In this document: piece after piece, positions 5,568-64,000 of the stretch
Layout of the letters: the number at the start of each line of letters is the position of its first letter
How positions within the stretch are numbered: position 1 is the stretch's first letter
Assembly (NCBI RefSeq): GCF_007421815.1
Contig: NZ_VLNT01000009.1
Coordinates: 1-64,000 of the forward strand
Source: Aeromicrobium piscarium
Lineage (GTDB): Bacteria; Actinomycetota; Actinomycetes; Propionibacteriales; Nocardioidaceae
Direction of reading: 5' to 3'
DNA: 64,000 nucleotides
Notes under the pieces: model-generated
The model's database searches: none
Told to the model about the DNA's origin: nothing
What the model saw: the letters and a program-made list of their open reading frames with translations, nothing else
Translations under genes and position numbers: made by a program

Positions 5568-6545
5568 ATGTACACACAGCCCCCTCAACGCCGCCTGACG
5601 CGTTGTTTCGTCATCGCCACCGGCTCCACCCTGTTGCTCGGGGCCTGCGGTGCCAGCGTCGGCAGCGGCGGAGACGACGACTGGACCCCCGAAGGCCGCG
5701 TCACCATGCTGGTGCCCGCGGGCGCGGGCGGCGGCAGCGATCTGTTGGCCCGTTCGGTCGGCAGCGGATTCGAGGACGTGGTCTCCGGCCTGAACGTCAA
5801 CGTCGAGAACTACGACGGACTGCCCGGCTACGCCCAGCTGCAGAAGGCGGCCGGCGACCCCGCCGTCATGCTGTCCGCCGAGTCGAGCCTCATCACGGTG
5901 CCGCAGCTCGCGGACGTCGACTTCGACTACACGTCGTTCACCCCGATCTTCAAGCTGGGCGACGATCGCGCGGTGCTGACCGTGAGCGAGGGCTCGGAGT
6001 TCTCGTCGTGCTCGGAGGTGATCGGCGCGGCGGAGAGCGACCAGGTGCAGGTCGGCGTCGCGAGCGCGACGGGCATCGACGCGGCCGTCACGCTGCTCAC
6101 CGAGCAGGCCACCGGCGTCGAGTTCGAGCGAGTGCCGTTCGACGCCGGCTCGGAGCTGGTGACCTCCCTGCTCTCAGGGGACATCGACATCGCGCTGCTG
6201 AACCCCGGCGAGGTCATCGGCCAGTACGAGGCCGGCAAGCTCAAGGGCCTATGTGTCTTCGCCGAGGACCGCTACGAGTACGACCAGCTCAAGGACATCC
6301 CGACGAGCGTCGAGGAGGGCATCGACGTCACGTTCTCGCAGTTCCGCGGCATCATCGCGCCGGCCGACATTACCGACGCCGAGCGTGACGCGTGGGTCGA
6401 GGTCGCCGAGGAGTTCACCGAGAGCGATGCCTACGACGAGTACATCGAGCAGAACTATCTGCAGCCCAATGCGGTGTTCGGTGAGGAGTTCTCCACCTAC
6501 CTGGAGGAGATGGCTGAGTCCCTGAGCGGGGTGTCCGAGCAGTGA
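5568..6545 (+). CDS. tctC: Tripartite tricarboxylate transporter substrate-binding lipoprotein (TctC/Bug)
   Basis: A 325-residue solute receptor of the TctC/Bug family that captures a carboxylate outside the membrane and hands it to TctAB. The signal peptide ends in a lipobox (LLLGAC, C27), as expected for a Gram-positive receptor. The mature protein starts with the typical strand VTMLVPAGAGGGSDLLAR, which contacts the ligand carboxylate, and has the conserved internal LLSGDIDIALLNPGEV segment. It is unusually acidic. TctB follows with an overlapping GTGA. The ligand cannot be deduced; relatives bind citrate, glutarate, terephthalate and other mono- or dicarboxylates. Confidence 0.92.
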   Translation: MYTQPPQRRLTRCFVIATGSTLLLGACGASVGSGGDDDWTPEGRVTMLVPAGAGGGSDLLARSVGSGFEDVVSGLNVNVENYDGLPGYAQLQKAAGDPAVMLSAESSLITVPQLADVDFDYTSFTPIFKLGDDRAVLTVSEGSEFSSCSEVIGAAESDQVQVGVASATGIDAAVTLLTEQATGVEFERVPFDAGSELVTSLLSGDIDIALLNPGEVIGQYEAGKLKGLCVFAEDRYEYDQLKDIPTSVEEGIDVTFSQFRGIIAPADITDAERDAWVEVAEEFTESDAYDEYIEQNYLQPNAVFGEEFSTYLEEMAESLSGVSEQ

Positions 6546-7057
6546 CGGAAACGCGACCGGTGCCCAGCGGCGAGCTCATCGCCTATGCCGTCCTGACAGC
6601 GGTGGGGGTCTACGCCACCGTCAACGGTGTCAGCTACCGACTCGTCGAACCGTCGGGCGCCGTCGGTCCGGGGATGATGCCCGCCGCCAGCGGTGTGGTG
6701 ATCGTCGGACTGTCGCTGATCCTCATGGTACGAGTGCTGCGCTCGTCGGGCGCCGGTCGTGGGGTCACTGCCGAGGAACTCGCCGCGGCCTCCGAGGACG
6801 ACGTGATCGATCCACCGCGCGAGCATCGGGCGTGGGTCGTGATCGGGCTCATGGTGGTCACGGCGCTCCTCATGAACGTACTGGGGTTGCTGCCCGCGCT
6901 CGGCATCCTGGTGGTCGTGGTGGTCGGGTTTGTCGAACGACGGTCCTGGACGCGGGCCGTCGCCGTGGGGCTGATCACCGTCGTCGTGCTCTATCTGGTG
7001 TTCGACCAATTGCTCGGCGTGCCACTGCCGACGGGTCTGCTGGGCGGGGTGATCTGA
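6542..7057 (+). CDS. tctB: Tripartite tricarboxylate transporter small membrane subunit (TctB)
   Basis: A 171-residue TctB-family protein with four hydrophobic segments (about residues 12-30, 42-62, 100-120 and 135-165), the small membrane component that partners TctA. The GLVSYRLVEPSG-type loop near residue 25-45 is represented here by VNGVSYRLVEPSGAVGPGMMP, which matches the family. The GTG start overlaps the tctC stop (GTGA), indicating coupled translation, and tctA begins three bases after its own stop. Confidence 0.88.
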   Translation: MTETRPVPSGELIAYAVLTAVGVYATVNGVSYRLVEPSGAVGPGMMPAASGVVIVGLSLILMVRVLRSSGAGRGVTAEELAAASEDDVIDPPREHRAWVVIGLMVVTALLMNVLGLLPALGILVVVVVGFVERRSWTRAVAVGLITVVVLYLVFDQLLGVPLPTGLLGGVI

Positions 7058-16322: not shown

Positions 16323-16407
16323 GCGGTGACTTACGCACCTCTCGAGCGATCCAAGAGGTGCGTAGGCCACCGCCCCACCGGCCGAGAGGTGTGTAACCCA
16401 CCGCCCC
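16323..16407. repeat. Compound palindromic intergenic repeat, copy B1
   Basis: The left arm GCGGTGACTTACGCACCTCT (16323-16342) is inverted at 16354-16373 with 18 of 20 pairs, both differences being G-U compatible. A second inverted copy lies at 16385-16404. The element fills the gap between the convergent ends of rsmI and the YhgE gene and may act as a bidirectional terminator. The arms are nearly identical to those of copy B2 at 33412-33493. Confidence 0.85.
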
Positions 16408-31055: not shown

Positions 31056-31086
31056 ACCGCTCTCGAGGCGCGCCGCTCCCGCCCAT

Positions 31087-31210
31087 GGGCGGTGAGCTGT
31101 CACGTACTCGCGCCACGCTCCTGCGTGATGACTCACCGGAATCGTGGTCGACAGGATATCGGTGAGCCATCACCCACGATTGCCCGCTGGGTGCGGGATA
31201 ACTCACCGCC
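31087..31210. repeat. Compound palindromic intergenic repeat, copy B3
   Basis: Two inverted pairs lie in tandem. CGGTGAGCTGTCACG (31090-31104) pairs with 31124-31138, and CGGTGAGCCATCACCCA (31160-31176) pairs with 31188-31210, which ends in TCACCGCC. The outer GGCGGTGAG arms are those of the B family, while the inner sequence differs. It fills the gap after the small membrane gene. Confidence 0.75.
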
Positions 31211-31252
31211 CAGGGACGGGAGCGATGGTGCCGTCGTCGGGTGGTCTCGCGG

Positions 31253-31304: not shown

Positions 31305-32309
31305 GTGCGCGTTCGAGGTCTCAGCATCCCGCCGCGGGCGATCGCGGTCACGAGCATCGTCGTCATCGTGACCTTCGTGGCGGCGCTGGTCATGTTCGGG
31401 GTCGATCCGCGCGGCTGGTTCGGCCGATCGGGTGCCCAGCGCCACGACCCCTTCGCGGGCGCCGAACTGTACGGCGCACCGGACTCTCTCGCCCACAAGG
31501 CAGCGGATGCGGCCACCGGCCCCGATGCCGAGATCGTGCGACGGGTCGCCGAGGTCCCCACGGCGATCTGGCTGACCCCCGAGGAGAGCGGACTCGACGC
31601 CGTCGAGCATCGTGCGGCCACCATCGCCGAGGGTGCCGCGGAGGAGAATGCCGTCGCTGTGGTCGTGCTCTACGGCATCACCGATCGAGACTGCGCCGGT
31701 GGGCACTCCGGCGGGGGTCTCGAACCGGGGGACTATCGCACCTGGGTCGAGCGGGCGGCTCGCGGTCTCGGACATGAGCCGCGCCACGTGGCCGCCGTCG
31801 TCGAGCCCGACGCCCTCGCGATGGTGGACGAGTGCCCCGACCCCGAGACGCGATTCGACCTGCTCGACGATGCCCGATCGGCCCTCGACAGCGCGGGAGT
31901 CACGACCTACCTCGATGCCGGGCATTCGGACTGGGTGGCGGTGGAGACGATGGCCGACCGGCTCCGGCAGATCGGGATCGACGAGGCGCGAGGCTTCTCC
32001 GTCAACGTCGCCGCCTACAACGGTGAGGCCGATGAGATCGACTACGCCGAGAGACTGGCCGATCTGCTCGACGACGGCGTGCACTATGTGATGGACACCG
32101 GCCGCAACGGTGCGGGCGCCTCCGGCGAATGGTGTAACCCGCCGGGCCGGGCACTCGGTCAGCGCCCCGGAGCGGGGGAGGGCCGTCTCGACGCGCGACT
32201 CTGGATCAAGCCGCCGGGCGAGAGCGACGGCACCTGCCGGGGCGGACCGCCCGCGGGCACCTGGTGGAACGAACGAGCGGCGGAGCTCGCGCGACAGGCC
32301 GGCTGGTGA
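31305..32309 (+). CDS. Glycoside hydrolase family 6 (cellulase/glucanase-like), membrane-anchored
   Basis: A 334-residue GH6 enzyme; the family cleaves beta-1,4-glucans by inversion. An N-terminal transmembrane anchor (about 13-33) places the catalytic domain outside the cell. Family motifs are AIWLTPEESG, VVLYGITDRDCAGGHSGGG, VVEPDALAM with the acid Asp (about 165), YLDAGHSDW, FSVNVAAYN, and VMDTGRNGAG...EWCNPPGRALG, ending with the base-region DARLWIKPPGESDG. The GTG at 31305 has GAAGG eight bases upstream. It neighbours a BcsA-like synthase, and in actinobacteria such as Streptomyces a GH6 enzyme (CslZ) accompanies the cellulose synthase-like protein. The role in glucan trimming is inference. 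Confidence 0.9.
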   Translation: MRVRGLSIPPRAIAVTSIVVIVTFVAALVMFGVDPRGWFGRSGAQRHDPFAGAELYGAPDSLAHKAADAATGPDAEIVRRVAEVPTAIWLTPEESGLDAVEHRAATIAEGAAEENAVAVVVLYGITDRDCAGGHSGGGLEPGDYRTWVERAARGLGHEPRHVAAVVEPDALAMVDECPDPETRFDLLDDARSALDSAGVTTYLDAGHSDWVAVETMADRLRQIGIDEARGFSVNVAAYNGEADEIDYAERLADLLDDGVHYVMDTGRNGAGASGEWCNPPGRALGQRPGAGEGRLDARLWIKPPGESDGTCRGGPPAGTWWNERAAELARQAGW

Positions 32310-32420
32310 GCCTCGGAACGGTGCTTTTCACCTCCGCGCCGACCGGTCCCGTGGAGCCGGTGAACAGGGGTGTCTCACCGCCGAGTCGGGAAACACCGTC
32401 GGCTGACTGCGGGGCGTTGG

Positions 32421-32426
32421 TACTGT
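32421..32426 (+). promoter_or_regulatory. -10 box of the response regulator gene
   Basis: TACTGT ends seven bases before the ATG at 32433, with no ribosome site between, so this is a leaderless candidate. Confidence 0.5.
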
Positions 32427-32432
32427 GAGCCC

Positions 32433-33401
32433 ATGTCGAGCCAGGAGCAGCGCCGTGTCGTCGTGATCGAAGACGATCCCGACATCCGCCATCTGCTGAA
32501 GACCGTGTTGGAGAGCAGCGGCTTCGAGCCGTTCAGCGCCTCCAACGGAGCAGACGGCATCGAGCTCGTGAGGCAGTACGACCCCCTCATCACGACCCTC
32601 GATGTGACGATGCCGGGCATGGACGGCTTCGCGACGGCCAAACGCCTGCGCGAGTTCAGCTCGACGTACATCATCATGCTGACCGGGCTCGGTGACGAGA
32701 TCGACGTCGTCCAGGGTCTCGAGGCCGGGGCGGACGACTATCTCGTCAAGCCGTTCCGTCCTCGCGAGCTGCGCGCGCGGATCGAGGCGGTCCTGCGTCG
32801 TCCCCGCGACCGTGCGGGGGCGGCTGGCCCGGCCGCCGAGCCGTCCGCGCCTCAGGCGGCAGCGGTGGCACCGGCCCCGCCGGCGCCGGAGTACACGCCG
32901 CCGACGTACACGCCCCCTGCCGAGCCGCCTCATCACCGGGCCGAGCCCACACGCCAGGCGCCTACGCCCGCGCATCATCGGGGTGCGCCGGCGGGCCCGG
33001 CGGTTCCGGCTCAGGTCGCGGCCAATATCGCCGCCACGAGCCCACAGGCCGGCGCTCGGGCGGATGCGGGCTCGCACGGAGCCCTCCAGGTCCGTGGCCT
33101 CGTGCTGGATCCCGAGACCAGGATCGTGACCGTGGAGGGACGCGGCATCGACCTCACCCGCACCGAGTTCGACCTGCTGCACATCCTGCTGTCCTCGGGC
33201 CGCAGGGTCCGTAGCAAAGCAGACCTGGTGCTCGCGCTGCGTGGCCAGGACTATGTGACCTCGTATTTCGTCAACGAGGCCGACAAACGCGCCATCGAGG
33301 TGCACATGGCCAATCTGCGCCGCAAGATCGGCGACTCCAGTGCCACACCACGCTGGATCGAGACCGTGCGCGGCGTCGGTTACCGCATCGCCGCCGACTG
33401 A
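32433..33401 (+). CDS. OmpR-type response regulator with long Pro/Ala/His linker
   Basis: A 322-residue transcription factor of a two-component system. The receiver domain (about 8-122) has the acidic pair E13/D14, phospho-acceptor D57 (TTLDVTMPG), T84 and K106 (LVKPFRP). The C-terminal winged helix (about 222-320) has the OmpR/PhoB pattern (LTRTEFDLLHILLSSGRRV...VEVHMANLRRKIGD...VRGVGYRIA). The linker of roughly 90-100 residues, rich in Pro, Ala and His, is several times longer than in typical OmpR proteins. It converges on the operon with two histidine kinases, the likely partners. The gene follows GH6 by 123 bases. Confidence 0.93.
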   Translation: MSSQEQRRVVVIEDDPDIRHLLKTVLESSGFEPFSASNGADGIELVRQYDPLITTLDVTMPGMDGFATAKRLREFSSTYIIMLTGLGDEIDVVQGLEAGADDYLVKPFRPRELRARIEAVLRRPRDRAGAAGPAAEPSAPQAAAVAPAPPAPEYTPPTYTPPAEPPHHRAEPTRQAPTPAHHRGAPAGPAVPAQVAANIAATSPQAGARADAGSHGALQVRGLVLDPETRIVTVEGRGIDLTRTEFDLLHILLSSGRRVRSKADLVLALRGQDYVTSYFVNEADKRAIEVHMANLRRKIGDSSATPRWIETVRGVGYRIAAD

Positions 33402-33411
33402 CGACCCTCGG

Positions 33412-33493
33412 GCGGTGACCTACGCACCTCTCAAGGGCGTTAAGAGGTGTGTCATCCACCGCCCCCGGATTGAGGGGTGCGTAGGTCACCGCC
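33412..33493. repeat. Compound palindromic intergenic repeat, copy B2
   Basis: GCGGTGACCTACGCACCTCT (33412-33431) is followed by inverted copies at 33443-33462 and 33472-33493. The left arm differs from B1 at one base of twenty. It lies between the convergent ends of the response regulator and lipoprotein genes, as B1 lies between convergent genes. Confidence 0.88.
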
Positions 33494-33514
33494 CAGGGTC
33501 CTGGCCCCGCGCGC

Positions 33515-34228
33515 TCAGTTCGCGTTCTTGGGGATCTCCTGCTGCTCGGTCGGGGTATCGGAGGCGAAGATCGCGATGGGCACCTCCTGCGTGATCACCT
33601 GCGGGGTCACATCGGGCTTGCCGGCCGCGTTCTCGGTCCACACGGTCGCCTCGAAGCGCAGCGTGATGCCGATCGTGTCCTCGGGCAGATCGCCGATCGT
33701 CTGGTTGCGCAGCTCGAAGGATCCCTTGGGCGAGGTCACGAGCATGCCCCACTGGTTGCTGACCGGCTCGGGATCGAAGGTGATCGCCGCGGCGGTCGCG
33801 TCGAGCGTGTAGGGCCCGTCGGTCACATTGCCGGACTCGGTGGTGATCGTGGATGTCACCTTGACGTGCTGCAGGAAGGTCTGTCGTTTGGTGGAGAAGG
33901 GATCGCGGAAGTCGCGGCTCATGTCGTAGGCCTGGAAGGTGAACGAGAAGTTCTTGTCGCCCAGGGGATACCAATCGTTCGTGCGCGGGGTCGACTTGGT
34001 CGGCCAGATGGTGAAGACGTAGTCGACATCGCTGGTCGTGTTGTGCGACTGGAAGGTGCCGTCGTGCGTGAACTCCGAGTCGAATTCGCGCTCCGATGCC
34101 GCCGCGCTGGGGGACGGTGTCGGCGAGTCGGCGTCGTCGCCGCCGGGGAACAGTCCGCAGGCCGAGAGCACGACGAGCAGGGTGAGGGCGCAGCCGGCCA
34201 GGGAGAGACGGCGGAAGAAGGCGTTCAC
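33515..34228 (-). CDS. Lipoprotein of unknown function
   Basis: A 237-residue exported lipoprotein. The signal peptide ends in LVVLSACG, with the lipidated Cys at about residue 24, and is followed by a Ser/Pro/Asp linker. The mature part contains mostly predicted beta strands (for example DVDYVFTIWPTKSTPRTNDWYPLG and TLDATAAAITFDPEPVSNQWGML) with no motif I recognise. The GTG at 34228 has GGAGT eight bases upstream. It is the last gene of the kinase-synthase operon, 28 bases after the GT2 gene, so it may help export or anchor the polymer. Confidence 0.8.
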   Translation of the reverse strand: MNAFFRRLSLAGCALTLLVVLSACGLFPGGDDADSPTPSPSAAASEREFDSEFTHDGTFQSHNTTSDVDYVFTIWPTKSTPRTNDWYPLGDKNFSFTFQAYDMSRDFRDPFSTKRQTFLQHVKVTSTITTESGNVTDGPYTLDATAAAITFDPEPVSNQWGMLVTSPKGSFELRNQTIGDLPEDTIGITLRFEATVWTENAAGKPDVTPQVITQEVPIAIFASDTPTEQQEIPKNAN

Positions 34229-34256
34229 GGGACTCCTGTTCGATGGGTCGCGGTGC

Positions 34257-35702
34257 TCAGACCGTGAAGCCACGATAGTTGCGAAGGATCTTGATGCCCA
34301 TCCAAGCGGTCTGGGCGATGGTGATGACCCCGAGGACGGGCCATCCATAGGCGAGGAGATCGCTCTGCGTACCCAGCGACAGCTGGCTCCAGACGCCGAT
34401 GACGATGGCGATCAGGCCGAGGGCGACCAGATAGGGCAGCAGGTAGGCCTGTCCGGCTCCACGTTCGGCGCGAGCCTGCGCCGCCCAGTTGTCGGTCTGT
34501 TGACGGCTGAAGAACTTCGTCCAGGCCCGCACGAAGTGCCCGATCCGGATCCACATGTAGAACTCGGCAGGGAACAGCAGTAGGGCGAAGAGCGTGTCAC
34601 GTTTGTTGCGGTAGTGCATCGAGCGCGCCACCCGCATGTTCAGCACGATGGCGGCGGTCGGTGGGATGAGCCACCACCACTGGAAGACGAAGGCGTCGAT
34701 CCACAGCGAGCAGATCAACAGCGTGACGAAGAGGAAGCGGGTGATGATGTTCAGCACCATCGAGAAGTGCTCGAACCAGCGCAGCCGCAGATTCGGGTGG
34801 AAGGGCTGCCCCTTGGTGTCGCCGCGTTGTCCGGGCCACATCAGTTCGATGGCGCCGAAGTTCCACTTGACCTGCTGACCGTCGAGCGCGCGCAGGTTCG
34901 TCATCCCGCCGACGTGGGCGCGGGCGGTCGCGCTGATCTTGGTGAGGTAGCCGGCGCTCTTGATCTGCAGCGACAGCAGCGAGTCCTCGACCTCACTGTC
35001 CTTGACCCAGGGTGCCTGCTGGTGCGTGTGCCGCATGACATCGCGGAGCGCCGGGACCGAGAAGATGGAGAACTGCCCGCCGAGCACGGCCATGTTCCGG
35101 CCGCGCAGCAGGTTCTGCATGTTGAACGCGGCGAACTGGGCGCGCTGGCCGGCGATGAGGAACTTCTCCATCGGGCTGTTCAGCGCGGTGTCGTCGATCG
35201 AGTAGATCGCCGAGATGCCGCCGATGCGATGGTCGCTCTGGATCTCCGCGAGGAGATCGGCGACGGCGGTCGGCTCGGGCGTGGTGTCGCCATCGACGCC
35301 CAGCAGGAAGTCGTAGCCCTCGACGAGGAAGAAGCCGTAGTTGAGAGCGCCGACCTTCTTGTCGGGGTTCTCGCCGATGTCGTGGACGAAGACCTCGACC
35401 ACCTGCTCGCCCTCGGCGGTCATCCGCGCGTGCACGCCCGCATAGTGGCTCGCGACCTCCACCGTGTCGTCGGTAGTGTTGTTGACCACGACATGGATGA
35501 CATCCGGAGGACGGGTCTGAGTCAGCAGGGAGTCGAGCACCGCGGAGATCGTCGCCCCCTCGTTGTAGGCCGGGACGACACAGCCCACCATCGCGCGGGC
35601 GGTGACCAGATCGCGCGGATCGTCCGGGACGGTCACCTGGCCGGTGAGGGCAGCGGTGTCGCCGTCGACGAACGGATCGTTGAACTCCATGGGCCCGATC
35701 AT
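34257..35702 (-). CDS. Processive family 2 glycosyltransferase (BcsA-like)
   Basis: A 481-residue membrane GT2 resembling cellulose and other beta-glycan synthases. Motifs of processive enzymes appear in order: VVPAYNEGATI (about 42-52), DGD (137-139), VEDSLL with the catalytic-base Asp (D240), and QQVKW (276-280), a variant of QxxRW with Lys for Arg. About five transmembrane segments follow from residue 295. There is no PilZ domain, so c-di-GMP would have to act through another protein. Starts at 35702 or 35690 are possible and neither has a good ribosome site. It is 35 bases after the degenerate GGDEF gene. Product sugar is unknown. Confidence 0.88.
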   Translation of the reverse strand: MIGPMEFNDPFVDGDTAALTGQVTVPDDPRDLVTARAMVGCVVPAYNEGATISAVLDSLLTQTRPPDVIHVVVNNTTDDTVEVASHYAGVHARMTAEGEQVVEVFVHDIGENPDKKVGALNYGFFLVEGYDFLLGVDGDTTPEPTAVADLLAEIQSDHRIGGISAIYSIDDTALNSPMEKFLIAGQRAQFAAFNMQNLLRGRNMAVLGGQFSIFSVPALRDVMRHTHQQAPWVKDSEVEDSLLSLQIKSAGYLTKISATARAHVGGMTNLRALDGQQVKWNFGAIELMWPGQRGDTKGQPFHPNLRLRWFEHFSMVLNIITRFLFVTLLICSLWIDAFVFQWWWLIPPTAAIVLNMRVARSMHYRNKRDTLFALLLFPAEFYMWIRIGHFVRAWTKFFSRQQTDNWAAQARAERGAGQAYLLPYLVALGLIAIVIGVWSQLSLGTQSDLLAYGWPVLGVITIAQTAWMGIKILRNYRGFTV

Positions 35703-35737
35703 GGCGCGGCCGGCTCACGGCCGGCTGTCGAATTGCC

Positions 35738-36877
35738 TCAGGATTTGCCTAATCTCTGCTCAAGAAGGGTGGTCTTCAGCTCGGCGGCCGTCGCGGCCAT
35801 GGAGGTGATCGCCTGTTCGAGCAGGGCTCCGTACTCCGGGGTCGCCGAGAAGGTGTCGGCGACCCCGTAGACGGCGCCGATGCGGACGCCCATGACCGTC
35901 GCGGTGCGGGACGTCAGCAGCGAGTCCTCGATGTCGCTGACGATCGCGTGGGCGCTCTGCGGCGAGGTCGCCGGGGCGAGGACGGCGAAGTTGCCGGCGC
36001 CCAGGTGCCCGATGGGCGCCCAGGGCGGGACATGCGCTCGCACGGTCTCGGCGAGCTTGCGGACGGCATCATCGCCGAGCGATCGGCCGAAGGCCGAGTT
36101 GAGCGCGCGCAGATCCTCGATGCTGATCAGCAGGAAGCAGGCGTGTCCTCCGACGAGGGTCACCCTCTTCAAGCGGCCCTGTGCGGCGAACCGGAAGGAC
36201 TGCGGTGACAGCACGTCGAGGTCCGCGAGGGGGTTCTCCGACTCCGAGGTCGTGAACCCCCCGGCCTTGCCGCGTTCGCGCAGCAGCTGGACGAGCACGA
36301 TCGCCGCCACCGTCTGCACCACCGTGAAGCCGACGAGGGCCGACTCGATGCGCGCCGTGCCTTGCCAGGCGACGATCGTCCACCAGATGGCCGACGGGAC
36401 GCATGAGGCGAGATAGCCCTGGAAGATCCGGGTCACCGGATGCTGCGCCCACGAGCCGATCTGGAGCTCGTAGATCATCGCGATCGCGGCCGCCACGGTG
36501 ACGAGAGCGCCGGCGGTGACGACGAGGGCGCCGTCCACATAGCCTTCGAGGACCGCCGCCGCGACGATCAGCAGTGCCGCTCCCGCGCCCATCTCGAGCC
36601 GGGGTGAGCGGTCGTGAAACAGCCGGATGCCCGACCACAACAGCGTCACGGCGATGGCCGCACCGCCGATCGCCGCCGCTCCGGCGAATCTGCTGGGAGA
36701 GGTCTCGCTGGTCCATGAGACGTAGACGACCATGCTCGCGCTGAACACGAACTGGGCGACGGCCAGGATCCGGGCCGCGCGGGTGGCGTGGGTGAGGATC
36801 GCGGAGAGGATGAAGACGACGGTCACGGTGGCACCCACGACGAGTGCTCCCACGGCGACGGCGTGGTACTGGTTCAT
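35738..36877 (-). CDS. Seven-TM protein with degenerate GGDEF domain
   Basis: A 379-residue membrane protein. Seven hydrophobic segments occupy about residues 8-200. The C-terminal part (about 220-375) is a GGDEF-like domain: LLISIEDLRALNSAFGRSLGDDAVRKLAE matches the conserved substrate-side region. The active-site GG(D/E)EF is replaced by GAGNF (293-297), so it should not make c-di-GMP. It may bind nucleotide or act as a regulatory partner for the adjacent GT2. The ATG at 36877, with GGGAGA upstream, overlaps the stop of the preceding kinase (ATGA). Confidence 0.82.
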   Translation of the reverse strand: MNQYHAVAVGALVVGATVTVVFILSAILTHATRAARILAVAQFVFSASMVVYVSWTSETSPSRFAGAAAIGGAAIAVTLLWSGIRLFHDRSPRLEMGAGAALLIVAAAVLEGYVDGALVVTAGALVTVAAAIAMIYELQIGSWAQHPVTRIFQGYLASCVPSAIWWTIVAWQGTARIESALVGFTVVQTVAAIVLVQLLRERGKAGGFTTSESENPLADLDVLSPQSFRFAAQGRLKRVTLVGGHACFLLISIEDLRALNSAFGRSLGDDAVRKLAETVRAHVPPWAPIGHLGAGNFAVLAPATSPQSAHAIVSDIEDSLLTSRTATVMGVRIGAVYGVADTFSATPEYGALLEQAITSMAATAAELKTTLLEQRLGKS

Positions 36878-38544
36878 GCGTGTCTCCCATCGGGTGCGCC
36901 CGCGGGGAGGGTGATCGACACGGTCGTCCCCTCCCCGGGCACGCTGCTCAAAGCCATCGTTCCGGCGTGGGACTCGATGATCTGTCGACTGATGTCCAGC
37001 CCGAGTCCCGACCCGCCCACGGCGGAGTCCCGGGCCGCAGCGGACCGATAGCCGCGGTCGAAGACCCGTTCGGCGTCGTGGGCGCTCATGCCGCGACCGG
37101 TGTCGCGGATCGACAACGCGTAGTGACCGGTGTCGGTGAGGATGGCGTCGACGAAGATCCGGCCGCTCTCTACGTTGTACTTGACGGCATTGGTCAGCAC
37201 ATTGTCGATGACCTGGCGGATGCGCAGCGGATCGGCGTCGAGGACGATATCGGGCAGTGGACCCACGACTATGGCGATGGATCGGGCGATCGCCTGCGGG
37301 CGGACGGCGGTGATGGCGTCCTCGACGATCGCCGAGGGCCGGCACGGTTCCATCGTGAGCACCATCCCCGATCTCCCCGAGGGAGAGCGGGCGGCGAGGA
37401 AGTCGTTCGAGAGGGTGAGGAGCCGTTCGGTGTTCTTGAGGGCCACCTCGACCATCTCGCGCGGGACGGCCGGTACGCCCGGCTCGTCGAGGGCGAGCTC
37501 GAGGTAGCCCAGGATGGAGGTCAACGGCGTGCGGAACTCATGGCTGACGGAGGTGACGAGCTCGTCGCGGTCGGCCTGGGCACGCAGCTGGCTGGTGACG
37601 TCGCGGGCGAGCACGATGACATTCTCGGTCGAGCCGTCGTCGCCGCGGAGGAACTGGCTGGTCCACTCGATGGCGATCGGTTGCGCACCGCCGACCCAGG
37701 TGGTCTCACCATCGACCTGCTCACCCTGGAGCGCGCGACCGATGGGGCCGTCCGGTGCGAAGATCGGGGAGCCGTAGTCGATCTCGTAGTCCGAGAGCGC
37801 GGCCTCGAAGCGCGTGCCGCCCAGGTGGCGGAGGAGCAGCCAGGCGCTGCGATTGGCCGTGCGCAGACCGCCATCGGCGTCGAAGGAGAACACTGCGAGA
37901 TCGAGGGAGTCGAGCACCGAGGACGTGAAGCGCTCCTGCAGGCTCGCGCGTTCGAGCGCGCGGGAGAAGGCATCGGACTGGCGGTGCAGCAGCCCGCGCC
38001 GGGCCGAGGCGACGCGATTGGTCTGGTAGGCCGCCACGGCGCTGAGCACGATCAGCGAGGTCACCGCGGCGGTGGCCGGGATGCCTCCGATCAGCTGGAC
38101 CTCGGCCACCTGCGCCTGGGTCCACCAGGCGGTCCAGAGAGCGATGATGGAGGCGGCGACCATGAGGGTCGCCACCAGGCCTCCGAAGGCGATGGCGACC
38201 CAGACCACCGGGAGCACCACCAACATCGAGAAGCCCGCCCCTGGGGTGGGGATGTAGAGCAGCAGGGCGCCCGGCACATCGACGATCGCGAGCAGCAGAG
38301 CCCACCGGCTGTTGGACTGCCGCCAGGGGAAGAGCCCCGCCACGGTCGTGGCGCCGATGATGATCAGCGCGCCGACAAGCAGCGTCGTCGATTCGGTGAA
38401 GTCCGGTCGGACCGCGATCGTGGCGAAGAACGGCAGCGCCACGGTGAGGACGAAGAGGAACTGCCAGTGCACGATCGCTCGCGGTGAGATGACGACTCGG
38501 CGGAAGTCCCGGTCGACGCGGGCTCTCAGCTGACCGGGGATCAT
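36874..38544 (-). CDS. Six-TM PAS sensor histidine kinase (HK1)
   Basis: A 556-residue membrane kinase. About six transmembrane segments lie at residues 28-175, a PAS-like domain at about 203-325, then the HisKA dimerisation domain with phospho-acceptor H335 (SVSHEFRTPLTSI). The HATPase domain has N box NVLTNAVKYN, G1 DTGRGM and G2 GGSGLGLDIS. Its architecture matches the next upstream kinase, suggesting tandem duplication. It overlaps both neighbours by ATGA. The signal is unknown; the nearby response regulator at 32433 is the probable partner. Confidence 0.92.
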   Translation of the reverse strand: MIPGQLRARVDRDFRRVVISPRAIVHWQFLFVLTVALPFFATIAVRPDFTESTTLLVGALIIIGATTVAGLFPWRQSNSRWALLLAIVDVPGALLLYIPTPGAGFSMLVVLPVVWVAIAFGGLVATLMVAASIIALWTAWWTQAQVAEVQLIGGIPATAAVTSLIVLSAVAAYQTNRVASARRGLLHRQSDAFSRALERASLQERFTSSVLDSLDLAVFSFDADGGLRTANRSAWLLLRHLGGTRFEAALSDYEIDYGSPIFAPDGPIGRALQGEQVDGETTWVGGAQPIAIEWTSQFLRGDDGSTENVIVLARDVTSQLRAQADRDELVTSVSHEFRTPLTSILGYLELALDEPGVPAVPREMVEVALKNTERLLTLSNDFLAARSPSGRSGMVLTMEPCRPSAIVEDAITAVRPQAIARSIAIVVGPLPDIVLDADPLRIRQVIDNVLTNAVKYNVESGRIFVDAILTDTGHYALSIRDTGRGMSAHDAERVFDRGYRSAAARDSAVGGSGLGLDISRQIIESHAGTMALSSVPGEGTTVSITLPAGAPDGRHA

Positions 38545-40202
38545 GAAGAGCCTCGTGCCGCGACGCCGACCTGGGTCAAGGAGATCTCGACGATGGCGGT
38601 GGTCCCCGCGCCGGCCGCGCTCTCGAGCCGGATCGTGCCCCCATGAGCCTGAGCGATCGAGAGTGCCGTGGCGAGTCCGAGACCGAAGCCGGGCAGCGCG
38701 CGACGGATCGCGGTCGGTGCGCGGTAGAACCGCTCGAAGGCGTGCCGTGTCTCCTCGCGGGTCATGCCGAGGCCGTGGTCGGTCACGGTGATCCGAGCGG
38801 AGTTCTCGTGCGTGTCGACCGCTACCTCGATGCGGCCGCCCGAGGCGCTGAACTTGACGGCATTGGACAGGACCGCGTCGACCATGCGCTCGGCGAGCTC
38901 GCGGTCGAGCGGCACCTGCAGGCGCGATGAGCCGTCCGGGCCCTCGATGACGATGCCGCGTGTGCCGGCGCTCTCGCGCCAGTGGTTCACACGCCGGCGC
39001 AGGAGATCGACGACGTCGATGAAGGAGAACGTGGGGGAGGCCCCCGCGACCTCGAAAGGCTCGAGCAGCTCGCGCAGCTTGGCCGACAGGCTCGTGACCC
39101 CCTGCTGGGCGCGGCGCAGGAACTCGCGGCCGGTCTCGTCCAGGTCATCGGTCTCCAGCAGGTCCAGATAGCCGACGATCGATGTCAACGGTGTACGCAG
39201 CTCGTGCGCGACGGTGGCGCTGAAGGACTCCGCGGCGTGCAGGGCCTCCACCAGATTGGTGATGTCGTGCGCGACGATGACGGCTCCGACCTGCTCGCCC
39301 GCCTCGGTCACGGCCGGTAGCGAGGACACCGACACCGCGTGCTGCGCCCCGGGTTCACCCACCCACTGCAGCGACTCCGTCGCGTACTCGCCCTGCAGAG
39401 CCCGGGGCAGCAACTGGTCCTCCGGTGGGATGGGGGTGACGCGATCCGGTCCGTAGACCTCGTGGCCGGCCCAGGTGGGGTCCTGCGCGGAGACGCCCAT
39501 CCGGCGTCCCAGCTCCTGCGCCCGCTGGTTCGCGAAGGTCGAGGACCGGTCCTGCGAGGCGAAGAAGACGGCCGCATCGACGCCGTGTGCGATCGCCCGC
39601 ATCACCGCGGCATTGCTCTCGGCGCTCGCGAGGGCGTCCTGCTGGGAGCGCCAGGCCTCTTCGGCGATGGCCCGCGATCTGCGCAGGGCGTCGGCATTGG
39701 CCTGCGTGAGGATGGCGAGCGAGGCGACCACGAAGTAGAAGACGCTGATCGCCACGATGACGCGTGGGCGGCTCGGCATCGGTTCCACGATCAGCCAGAA
39801 GGCGATGCAACCGAGTCCGAGCGCCACGATGATCGCGATCGTGTGCGGCCAGTCGAGCTGGAAGGCGATCCACAGCACGGGGATCAGCGCGAGCAGCGGG
39901 ATGGCGTTGTTGGTCTGGTAGAGCGTCCCGGCGAGCAGGATCGTGATGACCAGCTGGGCGAGCGCCAGCCAGAAGGTGTGGCGTCGCGGCAACCGCCCCC
40001 AGGGGAGTGTGAAGGCGACGATGTTCAGGGCGACGAGCGAAATGCCGGCGGAGACCAGGACGATGGTGTGTGGATCGGGTCCCGGATAGGCCAGCGTCAT
40101 AGCGATGACGACGAGTGCGGCGACGGTGAACAGGCCGACGAGCACGCGAATGAAGCCCGCGTGCGGGGCGTGCCAGGACGGTGCGGTGTTCACGTTGGCC
40201 AT
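38541..40202 (-). CDS. Six-TM PAS sensor histidine kinase (HK2)
   Basis: A 553-residue paralogue of HK1 and first gene of the minus-strand operon. Six transmembrane segments (about 17-38, 46-66, 76-95, 100-115, 119-140 and 148-168) precede a PAS-like domain (about 190-320). HisKA carries H333 in TVAHELRTPLTSIVGYL, and HATPase has AVLSNAVKFS, DHGLGM and GFGLGLATA. It overlaps HK1 by four bases. Two complete kinases with one nearby response regulator is an unusual ratio. Confidence 0.92.
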   Translation of the reverse strand: MANVNTAPSWHAPHAGFIRVLVGLFTVAALVVIAMTLAYPGPDPHTIVLVSAGISLVALNIVAFTLPWGRLPRRHTFWLALAQLVITILLAGTLYQTNNAIPLLALIPVLWIAFQLDWPHTIAIIVALGLGCIAFWLIVEPMPSRPRVIVAISVFYFVVASLAILTQANADALRRSRAIAEEAWRSQQDALASAESNAAVMRAIAHGVDAAVFFASQDRSSTFANQRAQELGRRMGVSAQDPTWAGHEVYGPDRVTPIPPEDQLLPRALQGEYATESLQWVGEPGAQHAVSVSSLPAVTEAGEQVGAVIVAHDITNLVEALHAAESFSATVAHELRTPLTSIVGYLDLLETDDLDETGREFLRRAQQGVTSLSAKLRELLEPFEVAGASPTFSFIDVVDLLRRRVNHWRESAGTRGIVIEGPDGSSRLQVPLDRELAERMVDAVLSNAVKFSASGGRIEVAVDTHENSARITVTDHGLGMTREETRHAFERFYRAPTAIRRALPGFGLGLATALSIAQAHGGTIRLESAAGAGTTAIVEISLTQVGVAARGSS

Positions 40203-54173: not shown

Positions 54174-55625
54174 ATGCCCCGAAGGCTGCTCATCCGCGCC
54201 GGCAAGGAACCGTGGATCCCGCTCAGCCCCGAGACGACGCTGAGCCACAACGTCCTCGGCACCAATAGCGGCAACCTGCTGTTCAGCACCGCGGTCTTCG
54301 CGGCGCTGGGGGTGGAAGGGAACCAGACGCGGGCCGACTACTTCCAGGTCGAGCGGAACGGCGACCCGGTGAGGATCGGCGCCCGTCTCCGGGCGGAGTT
54401 CGATCACCTGGTCCTGCCTTTCGCCAACGCCTTCCGGGGTGGATTTGCCAGGCAGCTGGACCGCTGGACCGACGTCATCGAGCGTGCCGACCTGCCGGTG
54501 TCCGTGTTGGGCGTGGGTGGCCAGTTCCGGCTGGGGGAGGACCCGCCGAGCTCGTCGCCCGAGGTTGCCGCGGCGGCGAGGCGCTTTGTGCGGGCTGTCC
54601 TCGACCGGAGCCCGTCGATCGGCGTCCGCGGCCCCGTGACCGCGGCCTACCTGCGCTCGCTGGGCTTCCCCGACGACGCGATCGAGCAGATCGGGTGTCC
54701 GTCGCTGTACCGCCCCGACGTACCTGCCCGGATGTCTCGTTGTGCCGAGGGGCTCGGCGACGATGCCCGCATCGTGCTCAACCTGACGCCGCGCATCCGC
54801 AGCGCGGGAACGGAGCCGCTCGCCTCCCTCGTCCGACGCACGGTGGACGACTTCGACGATGTGCTCTACGTGGCCCAGGAGAACCAGGATCTCGACCACC
54901 TGCTGTGGGCCGCGCCGTTCGCCGAAACCAGTCATCCGGACCTGCCGCGCCATCCCGGTCATCGCCTGTTGAACGAGGACCGGACGCGGATCTTCGTCGA
55001 CGAGCGCACCTGGCGTCATCACATCGCGGACTACGACTTCGCCGTCGGCAACCGGATCCACGGGACGATCGCGTCCGTTCTGGCCGGCCTGCCGGCGGTG
55101 GTGCTGCCGTTCGACTCGCGCACCGCCGAGCTCGCGGAGGTCCATGCCCTTCCGCGGACCCGGCTCTCGGAGCTCGAGGCGGGCCTGACGTGTCGTGAGC
55201 TGTACGAGCAGGTCGATGCCGACCGCTTCAACCGTGCGCACAAGCAGAACCTGCGGCGGTACGTCCGGTTCCTGGAGCGTCACGACCTCGCGCACGGCTT
55301 CGACCGCGAGACGACGGTGTTCCAGGAGCAGATGCGCGCGGTCTCCCTGCCCGCCGCCGTCGGTCCGGTGACGGCCGGTGGTCCGGAGCGGTTCGCCGAG
55401 CGCCTGCGGTGGCTGCGCCGGCACGGCAGCTCGGATGTGCCGGATGAGCTACGGGAGCATCTGCCCGAATGGGCGGTCCGGCGTCGCCGTGGCTTTCGCG
55501 AGCTCCTCGACATCGTGCGTTCGCCGCGCCGGCTGGCGGCTGCGCTGGCCCGGCGGGCGCGCCGGTTGCCGTTGCCGCATGGCGCCGCCGGGCGAGGGTC
55601 TAGAGTGAACCGTGATGAAGCGTAG
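54174..55625 (+). CDS. Polysaccharide pyruvyl transferase family protein
   Basis: A 483-residue member of the polysaccharide pyruvyltransferase family, which adds ketal-linked pyruvate to sugars or, in other members, modifies wall glycans. Family hallmarks are SLGVRGPVT-like SIGVRGPVTAAYLRSLGF, GCPSLY, and the conserved NRIHGTIASVLAGLPAVVLPFDSRT near the active site. The C-terminal 120 residues, rich in Arg and Leu, are longer than in the minimal family. The ATG at 54174 is preceded by GAGAAAGG. It overlaps the methyltransferase gene by 11 to 14 bases. Confidence 0.88.
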   Translation: MPRRLLIRAGKEPWIPLSPETTLSHNVLGTNSGNLLFSTAVFAALGVEGNQTRADYFQVERNGDPVRIGARLRAEFDHLVLPFANAFRGGFARQLDRWTDVIERADLPVSVLGVGGQFRLGEDPPSSSPEVAAAARRFVRAVLDRSPSIGVRGPVTAAYLRSLGFPDDAIEQIGCPSLYRPDVPARMSRCAEGLGDDARIVLNLTPRIRSAGTEPLASLVRRTVDDFDDVLYVAQENQDLDHLLWAAPFAETSHPDLPRHPGHRLLNEDRTRIFVDERTWRHHIADYDFAVGNRIHGTIASVLAGLPAVVLPFDSRTAELAEVHALPRTRLSELEAGLTCRELYEQVDADRFNRAHKQNLRRYVRFLERHDLAHGFDRETTVFQEQMRAVSLPAAVGPVTAGGPERFAERLRWLRRHGSSDVPDELREHLPEWAVRRRRGFRELLDIVRSPRRLAAALARRARRLPLPHGAAGRGSRVNRDEA

Positions 55626-56313
55626 CGATATCCCGGGCTGGTTCAGCTGGACGGATCAACAGGTCTTCGGCCATTTCCTCTCTCACCGGGCGGTGGAGCC
55701 CTTCGGCGATCTGGTGGAGATCGGTGCCTATCTGGGCAAGAGCGCCGTCCTGCTCGGTGACCACCTCCGAGACGATGAGACGTTCACGGTGATCGATCTG
55801 TTCGGCGAGGACGCACAGACCGACGAGGCGAACGAGCGTGAGAACGCTGGATCGTACCGCGGGTTGACTCGTGCCAAGTTCGAGGAGAACTATGCCCATT
55901 TCCACGATCGGCCTCCGGTGATCGTTCAGGCACTCAGCTCGACCATCGTCGACCACGTCGCGCCCTCCTCGGCGCGGTTCCTGCACATCGACGGCTCTCA
56001 TCTCTACGAGCACGTGGCCACCGATGCGCAGTCGGCACAGCGCCTGGCCAAGGCGGGGGCGGTCATCGCCTTCGATGACTACCGATCGGTCCACACGCCC
56101 GGCACCGCGGCGGCGATCTGGGAGGCCGCGATCCTCAAGGATCTGAAGATCATCGCCTTGACACCGAGCAAGCTGTACGGGACCTTCGACGCCGACGCCG
56201 AGCAGCACCGGCGTCATCTCGAGACTTGGCTGCGTGAGTTCGGCAGGTTGAACTGGGAGCACCAGGATCTGCTGGGCAGCACCATCGTGCGCATCTGGCC
56301 CGAGCCCTCCTGA
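55615..56313 (+). CDS. Class I SAM-dependent methyltransferase (CmcI/Methyltransf_24-like)
   Basis: A 232-residue methyltransferase-fold protein. LVEIGAYLGKSAVLLGDHL is the SAM loop, FTVIDLFGEDAQ the following acidic strand, and FLHIDGSHLYEHVATDAQSA holds the metal-binding Asp/His of the CmcI-like group. It ends inside the cluster convergent with the large GT2/TagF gene. Starts at GTG 55612 or ATG 55615 are both possible. A TAGAGT box at 55601-55606 suggests an own promoter within the upstream gene. The acceptor is unknown, probably a sugar of the polymer. Confidence 0.85.
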   Translation: MKRSDIPGWFSWTDQQVFGHFLSHRAVEPFGDLVEIGAYLGKSAVLLGDHLRDDETFTVIDLFGEDAQTDEANERENAGSYRGLTRAKFEENYAHFHDRPPVIVQALSSTIVDHVAPSSARFLHIDGSHLYEHVATDAQSAQRLAKAGAVIAFDDYRSVHTPGTAAAIWEAAILKDLKIIALTPSKLYGTFDADAEQHRRHLETWLREFGRLNWEHQDLLGSTIVRIWPEPS

Positions 56314-61934: not shown

Positions 61935-61966
61935 TGCTCTCCGGTGTATTTAGTGGGTGAGCTGTG

Positions 61967-64000
61967 ATGGTTGCTCCTCCGACCGGCGCCCCGAGGCGAC
62001 GTCGTATCCCCGAGATTGAGGGTGTCCGCGGGCTGGCGCTGACGCTGGTCGTGCTGTTCCACGTCGTCGGCAATGGTCGAGTCTCGGGAGGGGTCGATGT
62101 CTTCCTCTTCGTTTCGGGTTACCTGCTGACCGCATCGTTGATGCGGCGGGCATCTGAGCCCGAGGGCATCGTTCTGCGCGTCCAGTACCGCAATGTGTTT
62201 CTCAAGCTGGTCCCGCCGGCGCTGATCGTGTTGATAGCGACAGCGTTGCTCACGCTCATGATCACACCCCGTTCACTGTGGGATCAGAACCTGCGCGAGA
62301 TCGTCGCCTCCGCCTTGTTCCTGGAGAACTGGGAACTGATCGGGTCACAACTCGTCTACGGTGCGGCGGGTCCCGAGACGAGTCCGCTTCAGCATTTCTG
62401 GTCCCTCTCGATCCAGGGACAGTTCTTCGTGGCGTGGCCGGTCGTCGTCGCGGCGGCGGTCGGGCTCGCTCGACGCGCCGGCCAGCCGGCCGGACGCGTC
62501 GTGCTGTTCGTCCTGCTGTCCACGACGGCCGCCTCCGCGATCTGGGCGACTATCCTCGTCGGCCTCGAGCAGCCCGTGGCGTACTTCTCCTCCTGGACGC
62601 GGTTCTGGCAGCTCGGTGTCGGCGGTATCCTCGCCTTGATCCAGCACCGATTGCTGCCGCCCGCCCGTCTGCGCGGCGCTCTCGGCTGGACCGGTCTGGC
62701 GCTCATCGTCTCCTGTGGATTCGTGCTCGACGGAGGTGCCCTCTTCCCAGGTCCGTGGGCGCTGTGGCCCGTTGTGGGGGCCGTCCTGGTCATCGTCAGC
62801 TCCGGAGCCCCCGACGGAACCGGGCCGTTGCGACTCTTGGAGCTCCGTCCACTGGTGTTCTTGGCCGCAGTGTCCTACCCCCTGTATCTCTGGCATTGGC
62901 CGGTGCTGATCTTCTACCTGGAATACAGGGCCCAGCCGGCTGTAGGAGTTCGCGGTGCGCTGGGTGTGCTCGTCCTGTCGGTGGCATTGGCGGGGCTGAC
63001 AGACCGCTGGGTCTCCCGGCCACTGCACCGGCACCGGTCGCGGTTGTTCCCGGTGCGATCGTTGATGGTGCTTGCCGTCGCCACGACGGTCGTCGCCGGC
63101 AGCGCCGCAGTCTATGTCAACACGCTCCAGTGGGAGCGGCGGGCGGCGCTCGATCGACTGGAGGCGTCCCAAGCGGACTTCCCCGGTGCGCGGGCCCTCC
63201 GGGACGATGATGTGAACGTACCTCTTGAAGTAGGGTTCCAGCCCTCGCCCGCCGACGCTGGGGAGGATTTTGAGGTTGAACTCTACGAGCGCAACTGCAT
63301 TCAGCCCTGGGAGGATCTGCCGGGAACCGATACGGTGCTCGAATGCCGTCTGGAGAATGCGCCGCGCAGCGGCAAGACCATCGTGATGGTGGGCGCCTCG
63401 CATGTGACTCACTGGTACTCGGCGGTGAAGCCGGTAGCGGAGGCGGAGGGCTGGCAGCTGATCACGATGTTTCGTAATGATTGCCGTTTCGCGCAGTGGG
63501 GTGACGGCCCCGTGTCGGAGCGGGCGATGTGCGTCAGCTGGAACGACAATGTCCTCGATCGCATCATGGATATCCAACCCGATGCCGTGATCACCGAGGG
63601 CACCCGCACTAACCCCGATCCCGAGGTCGACGAACATGTGTCTGAGGAGCAGGTGGCGGCCTGGGGTGCACTAGACGCAGTCGATGTGCCCGTCCTCCCT
63701 GTTCGGGGCACTCCGCGCTTCTTCGAACCCGTCCCGGCCTGTATTGAGCGACATGATGGAGCCACCGAGCCATGCGGTCAAGCTCGACTGGACGTCATGT
63801 CGCCCGTCAATCCCCTCGAGGAGGTCCGGAATCTCCCAGCCAATGTCCTCCCGATCGATCTCACCGATGCCTTCTGCGGGCTCGAGCGTTGCGAGGTCGT
63901 GGAGGGCAATGTGCTGATCTACCGCGACACCGATCATCTGTCATCGAGCTATGCCCGATCGCTGCAGTTGCACATCCGCGACGCTCTGCACGAAGCACTT
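61967..64000 (+). CDS. Acyltransferase-3 / SGNH fusion (OafA-like), 3'-truncated by window edge
   Basis: A reading frame of 678 codons from ATG 61967 with no stop before the window ends. RRIPEIEGVRGLALTLVVLFHVV opens the acyltransferase-3 membrane domain (about 15-370, ten transmembrane segments), and VSGGVDVFLFVSGYLLTASL and FWSLSIQGQFF are typical. The extracytoplasmic SGNH domain follows, with MVGASHVTHWY (about 470) holding the block I Ser and DTDHLSSSYA (about 653) the catalytic Asp/His. Such OafA/PatB-like proteins O-acetylate wall polysaccharides, here probably the cluster's polymer. Confidence 0.92.
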   Translation, partial: MVAPPTGAPRRRRIPEIEGVRGLALTLVVLFHVVGNGRVSGGVDVFLFVSGYLLTASLMRRASEPEGIVLRVQYRNVFLKLVPPALIVLIATALLTLMITPRSLWDQNLREIVASALFLENWELIGSQLVYGAAGPETSPLQHFWSLSIQGQFFVAWPVVVAAAVGLARRAGQPAGRVVLFVLLSTTAASAIWATILVGLEQPVAYFSSWTRFWQLGVGGILALIQHRLLPPARLRGALGWTGLALIVSCGFVLDGGALFPGPWALWPVVGAVLVIVSSGAPDGTGPLRLLELRPLVFLAAVSYPLYLWHWPVLIFYLEYRAQPAVGVRGALGVLVLSVALAGLTDRWVSRPLHRHRSRLFPVRSLMVLAVATTVVAGSAAVYVNTLQWERRAALDRLEASQADFPGARALRDDDVNVPLEVGFQPSPADAGEDFEVELYERNCIQPWEDLPGTDTVLECRLENAPRSGKTIVMVGASHVTHWYSAVKPVAEAEGWQLITMFRNDCRFAQWGDGPVSERAMCVSWNDNVLDRIMDIQPDAVITEGTRTNPDPEVDEHVSEEQVAAWGALDAVDVPVLPVRGTPRFFEPVPACIERHDGATEPCGQARLDVMSPVNPLEEVRNLPANVLPIDLTDAFCGLERCEVVEGNVLIYRDTDHLSSSYARSLQLHIRDALHEAL

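Follow-up and report, generated by a model that had tools for sequence, protein, structure and literature searches.

A conserved cassette of GT2 synthase, lipoprotein, GH6 glucanase and two-component genes in Aeromicrobium piscarium is a candidate locus for a cell-surface β-glycan

The 64,000-nucleotide stretch of Aeromicrobium piscarium DNA analyzed here (positions 1 to 64,000 of contig NZ_VLNT01000009.1, hereafter the window) contains a cassette of seven genes (8.9 kb, 31305..40202) located between prs and rplY. We found that its core, which encodes a membrane synthase of glycosyltransferase family 2 (GT2), a lipoprotein, a GH6 glucanase, and a response regulator, is conserved across genera. 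On balance, the cassette is probably a self-contained system making a cell-surface β-glycan, with a two-component-controlled synthase, a lipoprotein partner, and the GH6 enzyme. To our knowledge, little has been learned about the surface polysaccharides that many Gram-positive actinobacteria make, and the cassette, found in many Nocardioides, Aeromicrobium, and Microbacteriaceae strains, offers a compact set of synthase, partner, glucanase, and regulator that lends itself to testing.

The cassette is a conserved gene set

The host genome (3.76 Mb) is 99.99% complete. On the plus strand, the GH6 gene precedes the response regulator gene, and the convergent minus strand carries, in order, the genes for two histidine kinases (HK1 and HK2), a membrane protein with a catalytically dead GGDEF domain, the GT2, and the lipoprotein (Table 1). 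An earlier note, made by a model from the letters of this DNA, had described these seven genes, and Pfam confirmed the domain content of all but the lipoprotein. The note had also considered the minus-strand genes a tightly packed group of five, which follows from the coordinates: HK1 and HK2, as well as HK2 and the dead-GGDEF gene, overlap by 4 bases, and gaps of 35 and 28 bases separate the GT2 gene from the dead-GGDEF gene and the lipoprotein gene, respectively.

Close relatives of the GT2 (E 3e-204 or better) were present in 10 of 25 same-genus genomes, that of A. piscarium included. All nine relatives fetched shared one arrangement, which runs from the kinase gene through the dead-GGDEF, GT2, lipoprotein, and response regulator genes to the GH6 gene, and one site, flanked by glmU/prs on one side and by rplY/pth/mfd on the other. 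Of the 15 same-genus genomes that lacked a close GT2, we inspected five, and prs and rplY were neighbors in all five, separated by 0.2 to 0.56 kb, in agreement with the earlier proposal that the cassette interrupts the prs-rplY region.

A scan of named genomes yielded 261 GT2 relatives, and we retained the 80 best (E-values are relative to the candidates of that scan). These comprised 42 Nocardioides-type loci (including 3 metagenome-assembled genomes [MAGs], Pimelobacter among them), 28 Microbacteriaceae loci (including 1 Actinomycetales MAG), 9 Aeromicrobium-type loci (including 2 MAGs placed to family or order), and 1 Sanguibacter locus; three of the 80 duplicate genomes fetched earlier (L107, L108, and L113 are L035, L037, and L039). 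Genes were counted by a crude caller, as stop-to-stop frames scored by profiles, in loci with enough contig, within a span reaching about 5.5 kb upstream of the GT2 and about 6.8 kb downstream of it. Loci were sampled by GT2 similarity, and GT2-free relatives of the other genes fall outside the sample. Among these best 80 of 261 relatives, the GT2 was accompanied by the lipoprotein in 79 of 80 loci, by the response regulator in 72 of 72, and by GH6 in 63 of 67. The kinase and the dead GGDEF stood beside it in 36 and 35 of 75 loci, respectively, and neither was seen in any of the 37 Nocardioides-type loci with room for them. Since the Nocardioides core stands without this pair, the kinase and the dead-GGDEF protein are an accessory input. 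The genes had been predicted to form a conserved unit, and co-occurrence in related genomes was indeed found; the prediction was thus not refuted, with the kinase and dead-GGDEF genes sharing the co-occurrence in only part of the range.

Because the set recurs at the same site in the genus (9/9) and with other flanks in other genera, its grouping is far beyond chance. The flanks outside the cassette vary among genera (in one Nocardioides locus, inspected by eye, they encode a carboxylase subunit and BirA), and therefore the set either moves or is kept as a block. A GT2 tree, built by a quick method, mostly tracked family lines, and distances correlated from part to part of the cassette (r 0.64 to 0.96), as they would from shared ancestry alone. 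The GT2 recurs in Nocardioidaceae and Microbacteriaceae, and only 3 of 396 genomes drawn across the phylum had a match, including that of A. piscarium and one of the same genus, so the GT2 family is narrow. A GT2 with 65% identity was also present in a genome of another family in the same order (L040, 8607-10100). Neither the lipoprotein nor the response regulator nor GH6 was found near it in the 19 kb fetched, and it is apparently an isolated or transferred copy.

The GT2 resembles polymer synthases in fold

The window GT2 matched PF00535 in Pfam (E 1e-15) and carries the motifs DGD, SEVED, and QQVKW, with a lysine in place of the arginine of QxxRW. Q276, Q277, K279, and W280 were invariant in 62 aligned GT2s, and the likewise invariant ED and QxxKW correspond in position to ED and QxxRW in processive synthases. 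Pfam showed no PilZ match in the GT2. Both the QQVKW variant and the lack of PilZ had been pointed out before and were thus confirmed. A structure model (pLDDT 79) aligned with hyaluronan, chitin, and cellulose synthases over 334 to 396 residues, including the transmembrane (TM) part.

These features bear on the possibility that the GT2 acts non-processively, as a membrane transferase adding glucose to a lipid or wall polymer, with GH6 and the lipoprotein trimming or carrying the product. We consider this quite unlikely, given the invariance of the processive-like ED and QxxKW in 62 sequences, the alignment of the TM region with polymer synthases, and the co-occurrence, in 63 of 67 loci, of a GH6, a family that acts on β-1,4 chains (available part of PMC9040799).

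We also evaluated the GT2 as a relative of BcsA or CslA by sequence, and this assignment was rejected. The CelA model TIGR03030 matched neither the window GT2 (E ≤ 0.01) nor three orthologues (E ≤ 0.001); a CslA-like control scored E 6.4e-26, itself below the cutoff of the model. Comparison with three CslA-like proteins gave no match by blastp (E ≤ 1e-3) or by hidden Markov model (HMM; E ≤ 1), and hhalign returned a probability of 1.2% with shallow profiles. The earlier description of the GT2 as BcsA-like therefore holds at the level of fold but not of sequence.

The best curated match of the window GT2 and of the three orthologues scanned was PgaC_IcaA (E 2e-9 to 9e-14), and two of the three orthologues also matched NodC. 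Accordingly, the same module could make an amino-sugar polymer, chitin-like or similar to poly-N-acetylglucosamine, with a GH6 as promiscuous as CslZ, which is reported to act on chitin and peptidoglycan as well (available part of PMC11022532). However, all of these matches were far below the model cutoffs, including that of the window GT2 to the PgaC/IcaA model TIGR03937 (36.9 bits versus a cutoff of 422.3). In addition, none of the seven cassette proteins matched a PgaB/IcaB-type deacetylase or GH153 in Pfam, and the characterized GH6 enzymes tabulated in the available part of PMC9040799 act mostly on cellulose. An amino-sugar product is thus unlikely. The GT2 is similar to hyaluronan and chitin synthases in its fold, over most of its length and including the TM region, and to PgaC/IcaA in its weak profile match, but it differs from all of them in falling far below the family cutoffs and in lacking an N-terminal TM segment, which was found neither by a hydropathy scan nor in the structure model.

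The GH6 is anchored and keeps its catalytic aspartates

The glucanase matched PF01341 (Pfam, E 1.9e-56), and its nearest solved relatives are Mycobacterium tuberculosis Cel6 structures (1uoz, E 4.2e-58). Hydropathy indicated a single N-terminal anchor (residues 13 to 31), and the catalytic domain is presumably outside the cell. The aspartates of RDC, EPD, YxD, and SDG, which we take to be the GH6 catalytic residues, were present in 72 or 73 of 73 locus GH6s (a set in which three loci are entered twice); the single misses were gaps, and the EPD aspartate was kept in all 73.

The window GH6 also showed 41 to 42% identity, over 270 to 300 residues, to three CslZ-like GH6s. These belong to loci L149 to L151, where CslA-like, GlxA-like, and GH6 genes lie together, in two Streptomyces-like genomes identified by searching for the GlxA domain. 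The earlier note had drawn an analogy to Streptomyces, where a GH6 enzyme accompanies a cellulose synthase-like protein. The resemblance to the GH6s of cslA-glxA-cslZ loci (available parts of PMC9040799 and PMC11022532) upholds the analogy for the enzyme, and for the product a glucan remains what we infer.

As this GH6 is about equally close to the M. tuberculosis cellulase and to CslZ-like enzymes (by different programs), and its gene is followed on the same strand by that for the response regulator, the locus might serve to sense and degrade cellulose, the kinases sensing cello-oligosaccharides and inducing GH6 with the GT2 as a passenger. This is very unlikely, considering that the enzyme is membrane anchored, that no other GH6 was found in the genome, that the seven proteins include no sugar transporter domain, and that the lipoprotein goes with the GT2 in 79 of 80 loci, though these were collected by GT2.

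The lipoprotein is a candidate synthase partner

The lipoprotein translation contains the lipobox LSAC and had no match in Pfam (E 0.1) or NCBIfam (E 0.01). Of the 91 loci obtained from either seed, a total in which three are entered twice, 89 had a member of its family. Structure prediction with AlphaFold2 gave a confident β-sandwich (mean pLDDT 85.6) that resembles only generic immunoglobulin-like folds, and we thus infer its function from gene position alone. As one of the most constant neighbors of the GT2, the lipoprotein is the obvious candidate for a synthase partner.

One kinase and an OmpR-type regulator belong to the Aeromicrobium loci

In the response regulator, a receiver (PF00072) and a winged helix (PF00486) scored over the Pfam cutoff, which defines it as OmpR type. 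The linker between them is exceptionally long, with 124 residues, and ranged from 83 to 212 residues (median, 135) across locus regulators, as measured in the 61 of 77 that showed both landmarks. In locus L037 (same genome as L108), a 140-residue receiver-like frame (6381-6803) lies on the other strand between the dead-GGDEF and GT2 genes and shares 60% identity with the response regulator over 110 residues.

HisKA and HATPase domains were over the Pfam cutoff in both HK1 and HK2. The two had been described as paralogous six-TM PAS kinases, which fits HK1, with a PAS domain over the cutoff (31.5 bits) and about six TM segments in a simple hydropathy scan, better than HK2, in which PAS was below the cutoff (18.8 versus 23.1 bits) and about five segments were clear. 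HK2 and the kinases of other Aeromicrobium-type loci were about 34 to 38% identical. Only 1 of the 16 Aeromicrobium-type loci, that of the window, had a second kinase; the others had a single kinase, nearest to HK2 (one of them, L073, is cut off at its kinase). Hence, the presence of two kinases, previously taken as a feature of the system, is not general.

The dead-GGDEF protein persists in some genomes where no usual cyclase was seen

The dead-GGDEF protein matched PF00990 (30.4 bits versus a cutoff of 23.8), and the profile of its family matched PleD and other solved cyclases. The GG[DE]EF signature was absent from 27 of 27 aligned proteins, including that of the window, which has GAGNF, and none of the 27 had an RxxD I-site in the 12 columns before the loop. 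The GGDEF domain had been called inactive, and the loss of the signature throughout the alignment corroborates this.

This domain is the only GGDEF found in the A. piscarium genome. EAL and PilZ gave no match there while control genomes matched (5 of 14 for PilZ); HD-GYP was not searched. These results support the previous suggestion that control differs from that of known bcs systems. Among the locus-bearing same-genus genomes, four (G000, G002, G010, and G015) had no strong GGDEF (best E 1e-4 to 1e-7; completeness of 83% for G002 and 87% for G015), and the other six had a GGDEF of ordinary strength (best E 2e-50 to 3e-40). Since the dead-GGDEF protein persists where no usual cyclase was seen, a role for cyclic di-GMP (c-di-GMP) is unlikely in those genomes. 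Moreover, with a sole GGDEF found and no EAL or PilZ match, this genome allows a direct test of whether GGDEF folds can act independently of c-di-GMP.

LapD and PelD are degenerate GGDEF membrane proteins tied to matrix production. Like them, the cassette protein is a membrane protein whose GGDEF fold lacks the cyclase residues, but unlike them it has neither I-site nor EAL and occurs in a genome with no other GGDEF or EAL match. In five Cryobacterium loci (L097, L100, L104, L106, and L118), a protein with GGDEF and EAL-type motifs is encoded immediately ahead of the kinase, at about 5.5 kb upstream of the GT2, and the cassette may therefore be coupled to c-di-GMP in some relatives.

Relation to known systems and proposed mechanism

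According to the available parts of PMC11022532, PMC9040799, and PMC7710045, the bcs, csl, and ccs systems share a plan composed of a synthase, a non-homologous membrane partner, and a glucanase. The cassette is like Streptomyces cslA-glxA-cslZ, for which a surface β-glycan is proposed (available parts of PMC11022532 and PMC9040799), in that a synthase gene lies beside a GH6 gene on the opposite strand. In contrast to that system, neither blastp nor HMM comparison matched the cassette GT2 to CslA-like proteins, profile alignment gave nothing significant, and the cassette additionally encodes a lipoprotein, a response regulator, a kinase, and a dead-GGDEF protein. The GlxA domain (PF09118) had no match in 4 of 4 same-genus genomes, including A. 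piscarium, and was found in 2 of 3 Streptomyces-like controls. Pfam detected no lytic polysaccharide monooxygenase among the seven cassette proteins; no genome-wide search for this enzyme was made.

With Gram-negative bcsABZ, the cassette shares a synthase, an extracellular partner, and a glucanase, and BcsA aligned with the GT2 model over 334 residues; it differs in lacking a CelA-model match and PilZ, in having QQVKW instead of QxxRW, and in using a GH6 as glucanase. Clostridial ccsZABHI likewise combines, in a Gram-positive organism, a synthase, a non-homologous membrane-bound extracellular partner, and a glucanase (available part of PMC7710045). There, CcsA is a GT2 with PilZ, CcsZ is a GH5, and CcsB, for which two TM helices are predicted, is similar to CBM11 (same source), whereas no PilZ, GH5, or CBM11 match was obtained among the cassette proteins.

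We propose that, in a β-glycan-producing cassette, the GT2 would polymerize sugar from a cytosolic nucleotide sugar and export the chain via the TM region at its own C terminus, in the manner of hyaluronan, chitin, and cellulose synthases. On the outer face, the lipoprotein may guide or release the chain, in the role of BcsB, GlxA, or CcsB, and the membrane-anchored GH6 may cut the emerging chain for trimming or release. Cutting by a GH6 would imply β-1,4 links, and a β-1,4-glucan would then be the most likely polymer. The kinase would sense the state of the envelope or of the chain and phosphorylate the response regulator, which would set expression of the synthase and glucanase. The dead-GGDEF protein might act as a membrane adaptor between kinase and synthase rather than as an enzyme or receptor of c-di-GMP. 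More tentatively, and with considerable doubt, the cassette may represent a further kind of β-glycan synthase complex, defined by a GT2 family confined to a few actinobacterial families, its own lipoprotein and GH6, and a dedicated two-component system, with a GGDEF domain kept as a c-di-GMP-independent adaptor between kinase and synthase.

Features of the cassette and other observations in the window

Table 1. Coordinates of the cassette genes and of the inverted repeat between them
Feature	Position	Strand	Basis
GH6 endo-β-1,4-glucanase-like enzyme	31305..32309	+	PF01341, N-terminal membrane anchor
OmpR-family response regulator with long Ala/Pro-rich linker	32433..33401	+	PF00072, PF00486
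Inverted repeat between the convergent response regulator and lipoprotein genes	33410..33494	.	25-nt arms, 96% complementary
Lipoprotein, β-sandwich, proposed extracellular synthase partner	33515..34228	-	Lipobox LSAC, structure model
GT2 membrane synthase, catalytic domain and C-terminal TM region	34257..35702	-	PF00535; DGD, SEVED, QQVKW
Multi-TM protein with catalytically dead GGDEF domain (GAGNF)	35738..36877	-	PF00990
HK2, membrane histidine kinase, conserved kinase of the locus	36874..38544	-	HisKA, HATPase_c
HK1, membrane histidine kinase, extra divergent paralogue	38541..40202	-	HisKA, HATPase_c, PAS_4

The inverted repeat in the convergent gap is possibly a two-way terminator or a dispersed repeat. 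Long inverted repeats were seen in two intergenic gaps of the window, at 33410-33494 and at 31074-31224 (arms of 25 and 34 nt, respectively), and a related pair lies at 16325-16371. With up to 3 mismatches, GGTGACCTACGCACC occurred 8 times in the window versus 3.0 expected, a count equalled or exceeded in 2 of 100 shuffles. These inverted repeats may be dispersed palindromic repeats or terminators. Farther downstream in the window, 54174-56313 and 61964-64000 presumably contain surface-type genes, judged by eye as a possible polysaccharide pyruvyl transferase, methyltransferase, and acyltransferase.
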